DNA of 20,886 nucleotides, from positions 1 through 20,886 of the IMG/VR virus record IMGVR_UViG_3300023179_000601; one strand, written 5' to 3'. Shown one piece after another: positions 12,796 to 19,746 of the stretch. The position numbers and the translations under genes were made by a program. The notes under the pieces are model-generated. The model did not search any database and was not told the origin of the DNA. It was given only the letters and a program-made list of their open reading frames with translations. Position 1 is the stretch's first letter, and each line of letters begins with the position of its first letter. Origin of the DNA: a virus.

Positions 12796-12820
12796 AAAGG
12801 GAGTCTAGCTCCCTTTTTTT
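12794..12820. terminator. Bidirectional rho-independent terminator
   Basis: Stem GGGAG (12799-12803) pairs with CTCCC (12809-12813) across the loop TCTAG. It is flanked by five A bases on the left and seven T bases on the right, so it ends in a U-run on both strands. It separates the converging rightward structural operon and the leftward gp32 operon and overlaps the stop of the exported protein gene. Confidence 0.9.
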
Positions 12821-13070
12821 ATTTCTTGGTTAAATCAGCAGATTTCTTGGTGTCATCTACAGGTTTGCCATCTTTGCCAATTGGTTTAACCTTTGGTTTA
12901 TCAGATTTGGAAGAATCCTTTTTTTCCTCAGCTTTCGGGGATTCTTTTTTCGCCTCTGATTTAGCTGTAGTTTTAACAGAATCCTTTTTAGAATCTTCTT
13001 TCTTTGCATCTGCTGCATATGCCCCTGCAGCCATTCCAATTGCTGCGAATAATGCAATAAAATATTTCAT
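12819..13070 (-). CDS. Small exported lysine-rich protein
   Basis: The 83-residue product starts with a clear Sec signal peptide: MKYF, a hydrophobic core IALFAAIGMAAGA, and a cleavage site after AYA (about residue 19). The mature 64 residues contain 21 lysines plus many D, E and S, in repeats such as KKEDS and KKDS, and no cysteine. The part near KVKPIGKDGKPVDDTKK looks disordered. It would be exported to the periplasm. The ATG is 2 bases after the gp32 stop, and the Shine-Dalgarno GAGG lies inside the last gp32 codons, so it is made together with gp32. I do not recognise a family. The length and clean signal peptide argue that it is a real gene; function is unknown. Confidence 0.7.
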   Translation of the reverse strand: MKYFIALFAAIGMAAGAYAADAKKEDSKKDSVKTTAKSEAKKESPKAEEKKDSSKSDKPKVKPIGKDGKPVDDTKKSADLTKK

Positions 13071-15023: not shown

Positions 15024-15286
15024 AAAGGTAGTTTTCCCCTTTTCTTTTTTAAGTAGTTTTGTTCTTCAGCCTCAATTTGAATTTTATCTTTAAGAGGTTG
15101 ATTAATTAATTTGGAAATGGATTCCACATCAATATCTATTTCATTACAATATTGAATAACTGCATCCATATAAGATATCTTTTCTTTATGTACTTTTTCT
15201 TCTATATATAAAGAAAATTCATTAGATGATCTAAATCTTTTAGTAATTACCATTGAATCAGTTAATTCTTTTTTAAGTTCTTTCAT
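15020..15286 (-). CDS. 33: Late transcription coactivator gp33
   Basis: The 88-residue product is shorter than T4 gp33 (112) but fits the small gp33 proteins of marine T4-like phages. Its core is FSLYIEEKVHKEKISYMDAV, then IQYCNEIDIDVESISKLINQ and EEQNYLKKKRGKLPL. gp33 binds the beta flap of RNA polymerase and links it to the sliding clamp (gp45), allowing strong late transcription. It lies next to gp59 as in T4. Its start sits 14 bases inside the bilin reductase gene, so bilin genes and a key transcription factor share one coupled message. Confidence is limited by the small size. Confidence 0.8.
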   Translation of the reverse strand: MKELKKELTDSMVITKRFRSSNEFSLYIEEKVHKEKISYMDAVIQYCNEIDIDVESISKLINQPLKDKIQIEAEEQNYLKKKRGKLPL

Positions 15287-15968
15287 TAAAGTTTCTTTTT
15301 TGAGGAAATAAAATATTATTCATATATTCTTGAAATAAATCCTTGTTAACACCTAAACCAATCATCATCTGCGGAGTACGAGGATTTTGCTTTTGATAAT
15401 AGCAATATCTATCATGAGATTCTGAATAATCGTTTTCTGATTCTCGTTTTTGCCCTACATTTGCAACATAATAATTTAATGTATTATAATATAATTCGGA
15501 TGCTTTTTCAAATTCTATTTTATCCAAATTACCTGCAGCTATCATGTTTTCTGAAAAGATTTGTTTTGCCCAAGCAGGTAGTTCTCTTGGTTTATTGGGA
15601 TAGTATGAAGATGAAATATTTTTAAAAGTATCTAACATCTCATGATTTTTATTGCCTGCAACTGAGTAATCATGAAAAAGACCAGTAATTTTTTCTTTAC
15701 CGGCCACGATATCAAAACCAAAAATAGGTGATGAATCATTATAATGAGGAAAAATACAAAAGTGCATTATCCATATTTTTTTGTTTTGTCTGGCATCAAC
15801 TATTTCTACATGTGCTCTTCGAAATTTATTAGATTCAAACACAAAATTTTCCCAGTTAAAATCATAACTAGAATGATCAAGGGTATATGGGACTAAGTCA
15901 GAATTTCTAAGCAATAATCCAATAGTATAGTTAGCCAAATGCTCGGCTCTGTCCCAAATATTAATCAT
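15273..15968 (-). CDS. pcyX: Ferredoxin-dependent bilin reductase, PcyX/PcyA-like
   Basis: The 231-residue protein belongs to the ferredoxin-dependent bilin reductase family. The core reads FRRAHVEIVDARQNKKIWIM, then HFCIFPHYNDSSPIFGFDIV and AGKEKITGLFHDYS, with the C-terminal DRYCYYQKQNPRTPQ helix. E55 matches the PcyA E76 position; H69 and D86 are 17 residues apart, the same spacing as PcyA H88 and D105. PebS of cyanophages lacks the histidine, so a PcyA/PcyX-type mechanism is favoured. It would reduce biliverdin IXalpha, with electrons from host ferredoxin, to phycocyanobilin or phycoerythrobilin. Phage PcyX proteins described from marine metagenomes make phycoerythrobilin and were traced to non-cyanophages. 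The start overlaps the heme oxygenase stop by 8 bases, giving a two-step heme-to-bilin unit. No ferredoxin gene is seen in the window. Product identity cannot be read from sequence. Confidence 0.85.
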   Translation of the reverse strand: MINIWDRAEHLANYTIGLLLRNSDLVPYTLDHSSYDFNWENFVFESNKFRRAHVEIVDARQNKKIWIMHFCIFPHYNDSSPIFGFDIVAGKEKITGLFHDYSVAGNKNHEMLDTFKNISSSYYPNKPRELPAWAKQIFSENMIAAGNLDKIEFEKASELYYNTLNYYVANVGQKRESENDYSESHDRYCYYQKQNPRTPQMMIGLGVNKDLFQEYMNNILFPQKRNFNERT

Positions 15969-16503
15969 ATTGTTTTAGAATAGCAATATTAAAATCAAAA
16001 GCAATATTCGCTTCAGCTGCCATATCAATACTAGTTCTTTTTCTCATTTCAGAAATAAGATGCACTAAATTATTAAATTTATACATTGAGGCTGATCCTG
16101 GTACAAGCTTAGACAGTTGTTGGCCTCCGAACAGATCGCCCATGTGTCTTACATAAATATGAGCCATTATTCTATTACGCCTATTGTAGATATCATCATA
16201 AAAAATATCATCAAGATATTTTAGATATTTATTTGTTTCTGAATTACAAATATTTTTGTAATTTTTAGAAGCCAATTCCACAAAATCTTTTCTTACAAAA
16301 GAAGCGCGTAATAAGTCTTCAATATCATTAAAAAGTCCTAGATTGCATCCGTGATTTTCCAAAGTATAATAAACAAAATGTAATTGATAAAGATAATCAC
16401 AATACTGTACTCTATCTACTGTACCCTCAAAAATGGATTTGATAAAAGGTAGCGATTCTGCTATGGCATGTTTTTCTTTAGTTGCTTCTTTTAGAGTATT
16501 CAT
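15961..16503 (-). CDS. ho: Heme oxygenase
   Basis: The 180-residue protein is a biliverdin-forming heme oxygenase, shorter than cyanobacterial HO1 (about 240). H12 in ATKEKHAIAE is the proximal heme ligand, and YVRHMGDLFGGQ at residues 117-128 is the distal helix glycine-rich signature (RHMGDLFGGQ here, against RYLGDLSGGQ in cyanobacteria). The enzyme opens heme to biliverdin IXalpha, CO and iron, using ferredoxin or another reductant. It feeds the bilin reductase that overlaps its 3' end. Its ATG overlaps the TGA of the membrane protein gene upstream (ATGA). Besides bilin supply, release of iron is a second plausible benefit. Confidence 0.9.
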   Translation of the reverse strand: MNTLKEATKEKHAIAESLPFIKSIFEGTVDRVQYCDYLYQLHFVYYTLENHGCNLGLFNDIEDLLRASFVRKDFVELASKNYKNICNSETNKYLKYLDDIFYDDIYNRRNRIMAHIYVRHMGDLFGGQQLSKLVPGSASMYKFNNLVHLISEMRKRTSIDMAAEANIAFDFNIAILKQYD

Positions 16504-17391: not shown

Positions 17392-17664
17392 TTATTTCTT
17401 AGATGTTTTTTCTAAGTTATGAGTTGGAATTTGAGATACAAAATCATTAAAAGTCTGAGCTTTGGCAATGATTTCTATTTCTGAAGGATATGCTGGCAGA
17501 TCCGGTTGAGGGGGAAGGGATTCGCCACGCTGTCTTGCATTTTCACAAGATGTTTGCCAATTATTATGCGATACTTCTCGCTTGGCAAAATAATCCTCAC
17601 CAAGCATGTCTTTAGATAGCTTCAATAACTCTAATCTTAATTCAAACGGTGTCATATTAGACAT
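17392..17664 (-). CDS. Small conserved-type phage protein of unknown function
   Basis: The 90-residue product starts MSNMTPFELRLELLKLSKDM and has helix, a proline-rich middle (SLPPQPDLPAYPSEIEIIAK) and a final amphipathic helix. AGGAG stands 6 bases before the ATG. The layout resembles small hypothetical proteins of marine T4-like phages. It lies directly downstream of the tmRNA coding piece and may be cotranscribed with it. No function can be assigned. An alternative start at the M of MTPF, three codons later, exists. Confidence 0.72.
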   Translation of the reverse strand: MSNMTPFELRLELLKLSKDMLGEDYFAKREVSHNNWQTSCENARQRGESLPPQPDLPAYPSEIEIIAKAQTFNDFVSQIPTHNLEKTSKK

Positions 17665-17694
17665 AAGTTTCTCCTGTGTGTATGTGAATAAATT

Positions 17695-17725
17695 GATGGG
17701 TTATTCTGTTACGAGGAAACCCATC
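17695..17725 (-). other. 3' stem of the tmRNA coding piece
   Basis: GATGGGTT and AACCCATC (17695-17702 and 17718-17725) are exact complements around a 15-base loop on the transcript. It closes the end of the coding piece just before the Shine-Dalgarno of the next gene and could be a pseudoknot arm or a processing mark. No U-run follows, so it is not a clear terminator. Confidence 0.55.
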
Positions 17726-17742
17726 GAAACCCTAAGCAGTGT

Positions 17743-17775
17743 TTATGCTGCTAATGCGTAAACTTCATCGTTTGC
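17743..17775 (-). other. tmRNA proteolysis tag reading frame (ANDEVYALAA)
   Basis: Resume codon GCA at 17773-17775 (minus strand) begins ten codons ANDEVYALAA, followed by TAA at 17743-17745. With the alanine from the charged tmRNA it gives AANDEVYALAA. It differs from the E. coli tag (ANDENYALAA) in one residue, N to V. The LAA end is the ClpXP degron. The bases before the resume codon, AATAGAC, match the usual upstream pattern. Confidence 0.92.
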
Positions 17776-17861
17776 GTCTATTGTTTTGCTAGGATTACGT
17801 CCTTCGCCTATCGAGTTGTCCACTTACATACTATTTGCTCCGTCGAAACCATGTCTGGCCC

Positions 17862-17970
17862 ATTAAAATAAACTCTTCAGTATACCTATAATAATTCCTA
17901 TTCCAGGTATAATTACTAGACTTATTCCAAACAAAACAATAATTAGTATAATGTATCTCAAAGTTTATTT
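17862..17970 (-). other. tmRNA intervening segment, with nested inverted repeats
   Basis: This 109-base spacer joins the CCA end to the coding-piece 5' end in the precursor. AAATAAACT at its start (17962-17970 on the minus strand) is the exact complement of AGTTTATTT near its end (17865-17874), so it extends the acceptor stem. An inner 7-base stem TATACCT/AGGTATA (17881-17887 and 17905-17911) lies inside. The fold would place the two RNA cut sites next to each other. Confidence 0.75.
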
Positions 17971-18044
17971 TGGTGGACCAGGCGGGAGTCGAACCCGCGT
18001 CCGCAGCACTTTTCTGTTTGCTTCATACAACTATATGATTATAT

Positions 18045-18073
18045 ATTATACTAAAAAAAGATTAGTTTGTCTA
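18045..18073 (-). promoter_or_regulatory. Sigma70-type promoter of the tmRNA gene
   Basis: On the minus strand TAGACA (18068-18073) and TATAAT (18045-18050) are 17 bases apart, the ideal spacing. Expected start is near 18038, giving the acceptor piece a short 5' leader. The -35 box overlaps the stop of the nuclease gene. It looks like a host-type early or constitutive promoter rather than a T4 late box. Confidence 0.75.
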
Positions 18074-18730
18074 GTCTTTTGTTGCTCTTTCGTATTCATC
18101 TCGCATTTTCAATAATTTACCAGCATAGTCATCTCGTTTTTTGTGAAATATCTGTGGATAATCATCTTCTACAGCGATAATAATAGTAATTCTAGGCACA
18201 GATATTTTGTATCTTTCCTCAAACATTATTGCATATGCAGTAGTTTGAATAAAATAATTTTCTATCCAATCTTCTCTTTTTGGTTTAGATGAGGTTTTAA
18301 AATCTATTACGTTTATCTTGCCTTTATATTCAGCTATACAATCTACAGTACCTGCTAATCTTAAATGATTTGAATATAAATATTTTTCTTGAATGTAAAT
18401 ATTATCTATATTATTAAGGTAGGGCAATAGTGTTTTGAATAATTCATATGTAGTTGGATTATCTATTACCATGTCTTCGTTAGCTAAATATTTTTCAGCT
18501 AATTTATGTAATCTAGTTCCACGTCCAGATGCAGCTTTAGATATTTTATTTGCTTGTTCATGTCCTACTTTGTTTCTCCATTCTAGAATTGCATTCTTAC
18601 TAAAATGACTTAACATTGTAGTGACTGAGGGATATTTATTTCCCTCTGGTGTCACATAATATCTTTTACCGTCTTCTAAATTTACTTGCGTAAGTTTAAG
18701 AGAAGGCAAATTTACATGATTAAAATTCAT
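18071..18730 (-). CDS. PD-(D/E)XK family nuclease
   Basis: The 219-residue protein has the PD-(D/E)XK exonuclease plan: PSVTTMLSHF at about 34-43, ASGRGTRLHKLAEKYL at about 67-82, the core GTVDCIAEYKGKINVIDFKT near 127-146 (D130, D143 and K145 as likely metal-site residues), then QTTAYAIMFEERY. This family includes RecB-like nucleases of phages. Roles in host DNA degradation, recombination or repair of forks are all possible. Its start is one base after the GH19 stop, and its last codons overlap the -35 box of the tmRNA promoter. No partner helicase lies nearby. The fold is fairly sure, the role is not. Confidence 0.83.
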   Translation of the reverse strand: MNFNHVNLPSLKLTQVNLEDGKRYYVTPEGNKYPSVTTMLSHFSKNAILEWRNKVGHEQANKISKAASGRGTRLHKLAEKYLANEDMVIDNPTTYELFKTLLPYLNNIDNIYIQEKYLYSNHLRLAGTVDCIAEYKGKINVIDFKTSSKPKREDWIENYFIQTTAYAIMFEERYKISVPRITIIIAVEDDYPQIFHKKRDDYAGKLLKMRDEYERATKD

Positions 18731-18731
18731 T

Positions 18732-19370
18732 TTAAGTTTGTAGTATTTCTATAGCATGATTATAATGTTTAATTCTATCTTCTAAACCAATAAAGCCACC
18801 ATTTATTTTTTTGGTCATCATTTTAATATCCTGAGCATCTGCTAATTCATTTAATTTATTCGCATTCCAAAACCAACATGCTGAATGTAATGCATAATAT
18901 GGTTGGGTTAGTGCATCGGGATTTTCTAATAAAGTTGAATCTCCAAACATATCATTAGAACAACGAGCATAGTTAGATTTACCGGTCAATTGAATTAATC
19001 CCCTGCCTCTAAACTTATACCCCTCGCCGCTTGCCTCAGGACCATTACCCATTCTATTGGCATATACTCTATTTGCTATTTTTTCCGGCTGTCTATTGTA
19101 TGCTTGTGCAGTAGCATCATCGGAGAAGTATTTTGGAAATACTTTACGAAGTCCTTGCCAAGAATAGTTTAGATTTTCCGATAACATGGTAAATCCCCCG
19201 GATTCGTGTGCGCATTGAGCAATAAATGCAGATACACGAGCTACATCATAAATATCATACTGAGGAAGTATTTCACACATAGAATTATACCATTCAGTAA
19301 TATCTTTTGCTTTAGGTATTAGATGATTAAGATGATCTTCAGTAAAATGAAAATCGAATTCTTCAGCCAT
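18732..19370 (-). CDS. GH19 chitinase-like endolysin
   Basis: The 212-residue protein is a glycoside hydrolase family 19 endolysin. VSAFIAQCAHESGGFTMLSE near residues 46-65 holds the catalytic glutamate (HESGGF), and GEGYKFRGRGLIQLTGKSNY around residues 115-134 holds the second acidic residue and the substrate loop. CWFWNANKLNELAD and the KKINGGFIGLEDRI end are also typical. GH19 phage lysins cleave peptidoglycan between MurNAc and GlcNAc. No signal peptide is seen, so it needs a holin. The AAGGAG Shine-Dalgarno lies in the last codons of iscU and the two genes overlap by 8 bases (ATGGCTGA), which ties a lysis enzyme to an iron-sulfur gene. Confidence 0.92.
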   Translation of the reverse strand: MAEEFDFHFTEDHLNHLIPKAKDITEWYNSMCEILPQYDIYDVARVSAFIAQCAHESGGFTMLSENLNYSWQGLRKVFPKYFSDDATAQAYNRQPEKIANRVYANRMGNGPEASGEGYKFRGRGLIQLTGKSNYARCSNDMFGDSTLLENPDALTQPYYALHSACWFWNANKLNELADAQDIKMMTKKINGGFIGLEDRIKHYNHAIEILQT

Positions 19371-19746
19371 GGTTTTTCTCCTTAAAGTCTTTTATTGCGG
19401 CCTTAATTGCATCCTCTGCTAAAATGGAGCAGTGAATCTTGACGGGGGGAAGCGAAAGTTCTTCTGCAATCTGAGTATTACGAATAGTGCCAGCTTCCTC
19501 TAGAGTTTTACCTTTTACCCATTCGGTAATTAGTGAACTAGAAGCAATCGCCGAACCACAACCATATGTTTTAAATTTAGCATTCGTAATGATACCATTT
19601 TCATCTACTTGTATTTGAAGCTTCATCACATCACCGCATGCGGGCGCACCGACCATGCCTGTGCCAATTCTTTTGGCTTCTTTAGCAAAGGATCCTACAT
19701 TACGAGGATTTTCATAATGATCTATTACTTGTGCTGAGTATGACAT
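19363..19746 (-). CDS. iscU: IscU iron-sulfur cluster scaffold protein
   Basis: The 127-residue protein is a full IscU (E. coli: 128) and all key residues sit at the same numbers as in E. coli: C37 and D39 in GAPACGDVM, C63 in KTYGCGSAIASSS, H105 and C106 in KIHCSILAEDA, and the HscA-binding LPPVK at 99-103. It likely assembles [2Fe-2S] and [4Fe-4S] clusters with the host IscS cysteine desulfurase and HscA/HscB. The overall identity to proteobacterial IscU is visibly high (DHYENPRNVGSF, EDAIKAAI). Local GC is raised: by my count 34 of 60 bases at 19621-19680. This suggests recent transfer from a host. The start overlaps the 2OG oxygenase stop (TAATG). IscU could supply clusters for ferredoxin used by the phage bilin enzymes; this is inference. 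Confidence 0.95.
   Translation of the reverse strand: MSYSAQVIDHYENPRNVGSFAKEAKRIGTGMVGAPACGDVMKLQIQVDENGIITNAKFKTYGCGSAIASSSLITEWVKGKTLEEAGTIRNTQIAEELSLPPVKIHCSILAEDAIKAAIKDFKEKNHG

Follow-up and report, generated by a model that had tools for sequence, protein, structure and literature searches.

A predicted complete circularly permuted tmRNA gene at a conserved locus of a T4-like phage

The tmRNA gene and its neighbours

The window, meaning here the whole 20,886-base virus record that was analysed, is a fragment of a T4-like phage as judged by its gene content. It encodes a gp59 helicase loader, a gp32-type single-strand binding protein, an exonuclease and two cell-wall enzymes, and its left part looks like a set of baseplate genes, judged by size and sequence. 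On sequence grounds, the minus strand from about 18038 to 17695 is a complete circularly permuted tmRNA gene of the two-piece type. Its parts and flanking features, in order along that strand, are:

18071..18730, minus strand: exonuclease (PD-(D/E)XK; phrog_298), the conserved upstream neighbour of the tmRNA gene, assigned from family matches and synteny
18045..18073, minus strand: sigma-70-like promoter TAGACA-17-TATAAT, agreeing with the consensus at 11 of 12 positions and reaching into the 3' end of the exonuclease gene
17971..18038, minus strand: tRNA-like 3' (acceptor) piece, with T-arm GCGGGTTCGACTCCCGC, acceptor strand CTGGTCC at 17981-17975 and an encoded ACCA; its 5' end is estimated
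17862..17970, minus strand: intervening transcribed segment of 109 nt, whose removal is expected; its ends pair (AAAUAAACUUU / AGAGUUUAUUU)
17695..17861, minus strand: mRNA-like (5') piece, with the GGGCCAG acceptor strand, the D-like region ACAUGGUUUCGACGG, the tag and a hairpin; its 3' end is estimated
17743..17775, minus strand: tag frame GCA AAC GAT GAA GTT TAC GCA TTA GCA GCA TAA, read as ANDEVYALAA* from the sequence, ARAGORN and model alignment
17725-17695, minus strand: final hairpin GAUGGGUU...AACCCAUC, within the 5' piece
17392..17664, minus strand: conserved 90-aa protein, the downstream neighbour of the tmRNA gene, assigned from relatives and synteny

ARAGORN reports a single tmRNA in the window, of permuted type, at 17652-18063 on the minus strand. 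Two Rfam models match the same place in cmscan: tmRNA_permuted (RF04321) at 18032-17743, with 135.8 bits (E 5.8e-27; cut-off 47 bits; model positions 1-213 of 213 covered), and beta_tmRNA (RF01850) at 18087-17685, with 110.6 bits (E 2.8e-33; cut-off 84 bits; model 1-331, complete). Because of these E-values, a chance match is excluded. Beta_tmRNA was the best-scoring lineage model of its clan, above its cut-off, in a comparison from which the tool left out lower-scoring matches of the same clan. The initial annotation had proposed a phage-encoded, permuted two-piece gene at 17695-18038 and had named covariance models and ARAGORN as the check; both find a permuted tmRNA. The interval, given there with no strand stated, agrees with the sequence, since 18038 lies 7 nt past the -10 box and the final hairpin ends at 17695. 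The phage origin is borne out by the T4-like neighbours and by a position kept across dozens of viral contigs.

The permuted tmRNA gene lies between the exonuclease and the small 90-aa gene in 49 of the 51 viral loci that have both genes in order, many of these loci being near copies and thus not independent. The tmRNA is not universal beside the exonuclease, because only 30 of 80 loci fetched by means of the exonuclease show one, many of them incomplete. All members of a sample of 20 loci match RF04321 above the cut-off. The 90-aa protein has no Pfam or PHROG match, and at least 594 confirmed relatives of it occur in viral contigs, often near a tmRNA gene. None of 200 shuffles of the promoter region matched the consensus as well as the putative promoter does. 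Sites resembling TTGACA-17-TATAAT recur at this distance in several relatives, and the promoter-like site is better than shuffles (p <= 0.05) in 22 of 72 relatives.

Other genes of the window were noted in passing. Heme oxygenase is followed by a ferredoxin-dependent bilin reductase at 15273-16503, a pair known as a pigment cassette in marine and freshwater phages (PMC11480375); 5-aminolevulinate synthase was not seen among the window proteins scanned. A NifU/IscU-type Fe-S scaffold protein (19363-19746; NifU_N, 174 bits) adjoins a 2OG-Fe(II) oxygenase gene, and a lysine-rich protein of 83 aa that appears to carry a signal peptide (MKYFIALFAAIGMAAGAYAADAKKED...) is encoded at 12819-13070, beside the gp32-type gene.

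Structure of the two pieces and the tag

The order on the minus strand is acceptor half, 109-nt intervening segment, 5' half with the tag. The CCA-ending half is therefore encoded upstream of the tag-bearing half, as had been proposed and as both ARAGORN's 'Permuted' call and the sequence indicate. The 5' piece opens with GGGCCAG from 17861, continues with ACATGGTTTCGACGG and then holds the tag frame and the final hairpin. GGGCCAG and CTGGTCC form the acceptor stem with 7/7 pairs including G3-U70, and ACCA follows, in agreement with the perfect stem and G3-U alanine mark described in the initial annotation. The marks in the Rfam model alignment show non-standard pairing at some positions of the tRNA-like and connector helices.

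The paired ends of the intervening segment extend the acceptor stem. In the predicted precursor fold (-90.6 kcal/mol, z -2.39; 3 of 100 shuffles were as good), the stem of the intervening segment is stacked on the acceptor stem. Among 136 permuted phage genes whose intervening segment is of sufficient length, the ends of this segment pair better than shuffled ends (p < 0.05) in 72%; for the window gene, p is 0.03. The modelled precursor is consistent with processing into two RNAs held together by base pairing.

In a comparison of 154 unique permuted phage genes, G3-U70 is kept in 151 of them, pairs 1, 2 and 7 are fixed along with G3-U70, and acceptor pairs 4-6 covary (GC/CG/AT/TA), in a count that is biased because ARAGORN favours paired stems. 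Many relatives have an altered D-loop, so that just 9 sequences passed a strict D-loop anchor. At the elbow, T-loop residue 55 (tRNA numbering; the second T-loop residue) and the facing D-loop residue switch together, U/G becoming G/A, in every one of the 149 scorable genes. On the exonuclease tree the switch took place along five independent, supported paths, each time at both residues (sign test p 0.0625), with exchange of tmRNA between phages being possible. The two states correspond to the beta- and alphaproteobacterial tmRNA types as modelled in Rfam; the window gene has the U55/G type (17835-18009), and some G/A relatives otherwise best match the betaproteobacterial model, combining a beta-type body with an alpha-type elbow. 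The G55/A18-type elbow was considered as a novelty and rejected, as the Rfam alpha_tmRNA consensus is of the same type (GGC T-loop, UAGGAUCGAC).

The tag frame has a resume codon, a stop and an LAA-type end. The resume codon is the GCA at 17775, as judged by aligning the gene with the Rfam models and with L267, a relative whose tag is identical. By the same alignment, the longer tag given by ARAGORN (EGRNPSKTID-ANDEVYALAA, 'Tag not identified') is an over-extension. The full tag, AANDEVYALAA, is one residue apart from AANDENYALAA of E. coli, in which AANDENY is bound by SspB and ALAA by the ClpX pore (PMC8512704). An LAA end is found in 124 of 152 phage tags. Across 28 distinct ten-codon tags, A1, N2, A9 and A10 are invariant, position 6 is F or Y only, and third codon positions vary most (0.30 vs 0.14 and 0.15). 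Both the start and the (A)LAA end of the tag are thus retained, and this coding-type pattern of variation argues for selection, as does the fixed position of the gene.

Relation to known phage tmRNAs

The initial annotation called a phage two-piece tmRNA unusual, which is overstated. Two-piece tmRNAs of aquatic phages were catalogued in 2022, when a two-piece ssrA was described in the Methylophilales phage Melnitz (Buchholz et al., 2022; PMC9004378). That study counted 53 two-piece tmRNAs among phage genomes, 50 of them from marine or aquatic samples, and found that 17 of the 47 contigs clustering with Melnitz carry a permuted one. A tmRNA database of 2025 holds 79 unique phage sequences of all forms (PMC11915505). 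Phage two-piece tmRNAs were thus already known before this gene, which, given the earlier catalogue (PMC9004378), belongs to a known kind. Melnitz and the phage of the window are both T4-like aquatic phages with a complete tmRNA gene of permuted form. The Melnitz gene, however, resembles those of alphaproteobacteria and is associated with a predicted glutamine riboswitch, whereas the window gene scores best as betaproteobacterial and has no riboswitch family at its site. A Melnitz-like riboswitch was rejected for the window gene, as Rfam gives tmRNA matches alone there, with no riboswitch or other RNA family up to E = 1. Compared with RF01850, the window gene matches the full-length betaproteobacterial model, including a promoter-like upstream part, but has 99 more bases at the intervening segment than the model shows and a weak match to the 3' stem.

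Two phage records illustrate how the gene varies. In Pelagibacter phage HTVC008M (KC465899.1), a permuted tmRNA at about 145120-145461 is unannotated and lies downstream of the exonuclease, as in the window. Its tag, ANFNEYALAA, ends in ALAA as the window tag does, but its elbow is of the alphaproteobacterial type (T-loop TGC, D-loop TAG) and its intervening segment is shorter. Synechococcus phage BUCT-ZZ01 (ON615601) is the best DNA match among phage records, with 71.6% identity over 58% of the query. Its permuted tmRNA is beta-type like the window gene but differs in its tag (ANDETFSMALAA), in lying in a tRNA cluster and in having no annotated exonuclease beside it. This tmRNA (L209:5974-6392, ON615601.1) is also unannotated; its match is to the beta model, even though a cyanobacterium is named as the host.

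The additions made here are modest: a fixed block of exonuclease, tmRNA and small gene, a recurring promoter, and the unannotated HTVC008M copy, none of which was found stated in the passages of the literature consulted. A clean, complete example and a conserved locus are thereby added to the little-studied set of phage two-piece tmRNAs.

Proposed role in infection

It is highly probable that a T4-like phage of aquatic bacteria keeps here a complete and probably functional permuted ssrA gene, and that this gene serves ordinary trans-translation during infection together with host AlaRS, SmpB and proteases. From the anatomy and the tag sequence we infer roles in ribosome rescue and in tagging for ClpXP. 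Host RNA polymerase would transcribe the gene from its own sigma-70-type promoter. In the precursor, the acceptor stem and the stem of the intervening segment would form one long helix, and host RNases would excise the segment to leave two RNAs that stay together through base pairing. Host alanyl-tRNA synthetase would recognize G3-U70 and charge the tmRNA with alanine. Host SmpB would then bring it to ribosomes arrested on mRNA that has been cut or truncated, translation would resume at GCA and add A-ANDEVYALAA, and host ClpXP would degrade the tagged product. Stalled ribosomes are expected to be frequent in T4-like infection, since the degradation of host nucleic acid by such a phage would produce them; supplying tmRNA would therefore return ribosomes to phage mRNAs. 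The gain to the phage would be free ribosomes and recycled amino acids.

SmpB was found in none of 21 related phage records, which may be incomplete, whereas the control was found in 10 of 14 genomes; the phage tmRNA thus presumably uses the SmpB of its host. The lineage of the RNA, for which the betaproteobacterial model is best, does not fix that host, because Melnitz infects OM43 and carries a tmRNA gene of alphaproteobacterial type (PMC9004378).

The Melnitz study proposes the same two roles, ribosome rescue and the marking of host proteins for ClpXP (PMC9004378). The second role could be the main one, with the tag tuned to mark host proteins for degradation early in infection and general rescue set aside. 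Such re-targeting, already put forward for Melnitz (PMC9004378), would fit the host-type, sigma-70-like promoter site, but is unlikely, as nothing in the sequence confers selectivity for host proteins. In addition, tmRNA acts on stalled ribosomes whatever the origin of the mRNA.

Somewhat less probable still is a decoy or inhibitor, in which the phage RNA would take SmpB, AlaRS or ribosomes away from host tmRNA and would not complete trans-translation. A tmRNA-like RNA of phage DS6A that has no CDS inhibits the endogenous tmRNA in E. coli (PMC11915505), and a phage copy whose relatives have no SmpB in their records would draw on that of the host. A pure decoy, however, needs no tag frame, whereas the frame here is complete, stop included, and many relatives preserve it as a coding sequence with an LAA end.

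Very improbable is a functionless passenger from a bacterial chromosome, left by imprecise excision, an att-site remnant or an assembly artefact: tmRNA genes often serve as sites of integration (PMC11915505) and prophages can contain ssrA fragments (PMC9004378), but this gene is complete and flanked by genes of a T4-like phage, its relatives keep their place between the same two genes with stem and tag intact in diverged sequence, no integrase was found among the window proteins scanned, and the tag in its flanking context has no match in a genome collection of 84,980 species against 7 viral contigs. Searches of that collection used exact patterns and may miss near relatives. The exact pattern of acceptor and T-arm occurs there in two unrelated genomes, neither of which was called as a permuted tmRNA (L291 standard, L290 not called), and in a plasmid collection just 8-11% of the query matched.

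A bolder reading of ordinary trans-translation by the phage gene can be offered tentatively, and is on balance doubtful. In a large T4-like group of phages of aquatic alpha- and betaproteobacteria, a near-core two-piece tmRNA with a fixed place by the exonuclease, its own promoter and rapidly changing tags might make trans-translation an essential, phage-run step of infection and not an occasional acquisition. What a phage gains from its tmRNA could be tested directly in isolates with this locus, for example HTVC008M on SAR11. In this SAR11 phage, the tmRNA (L295:2501-2842) overlaps the end of an annotated hypothetical protein.
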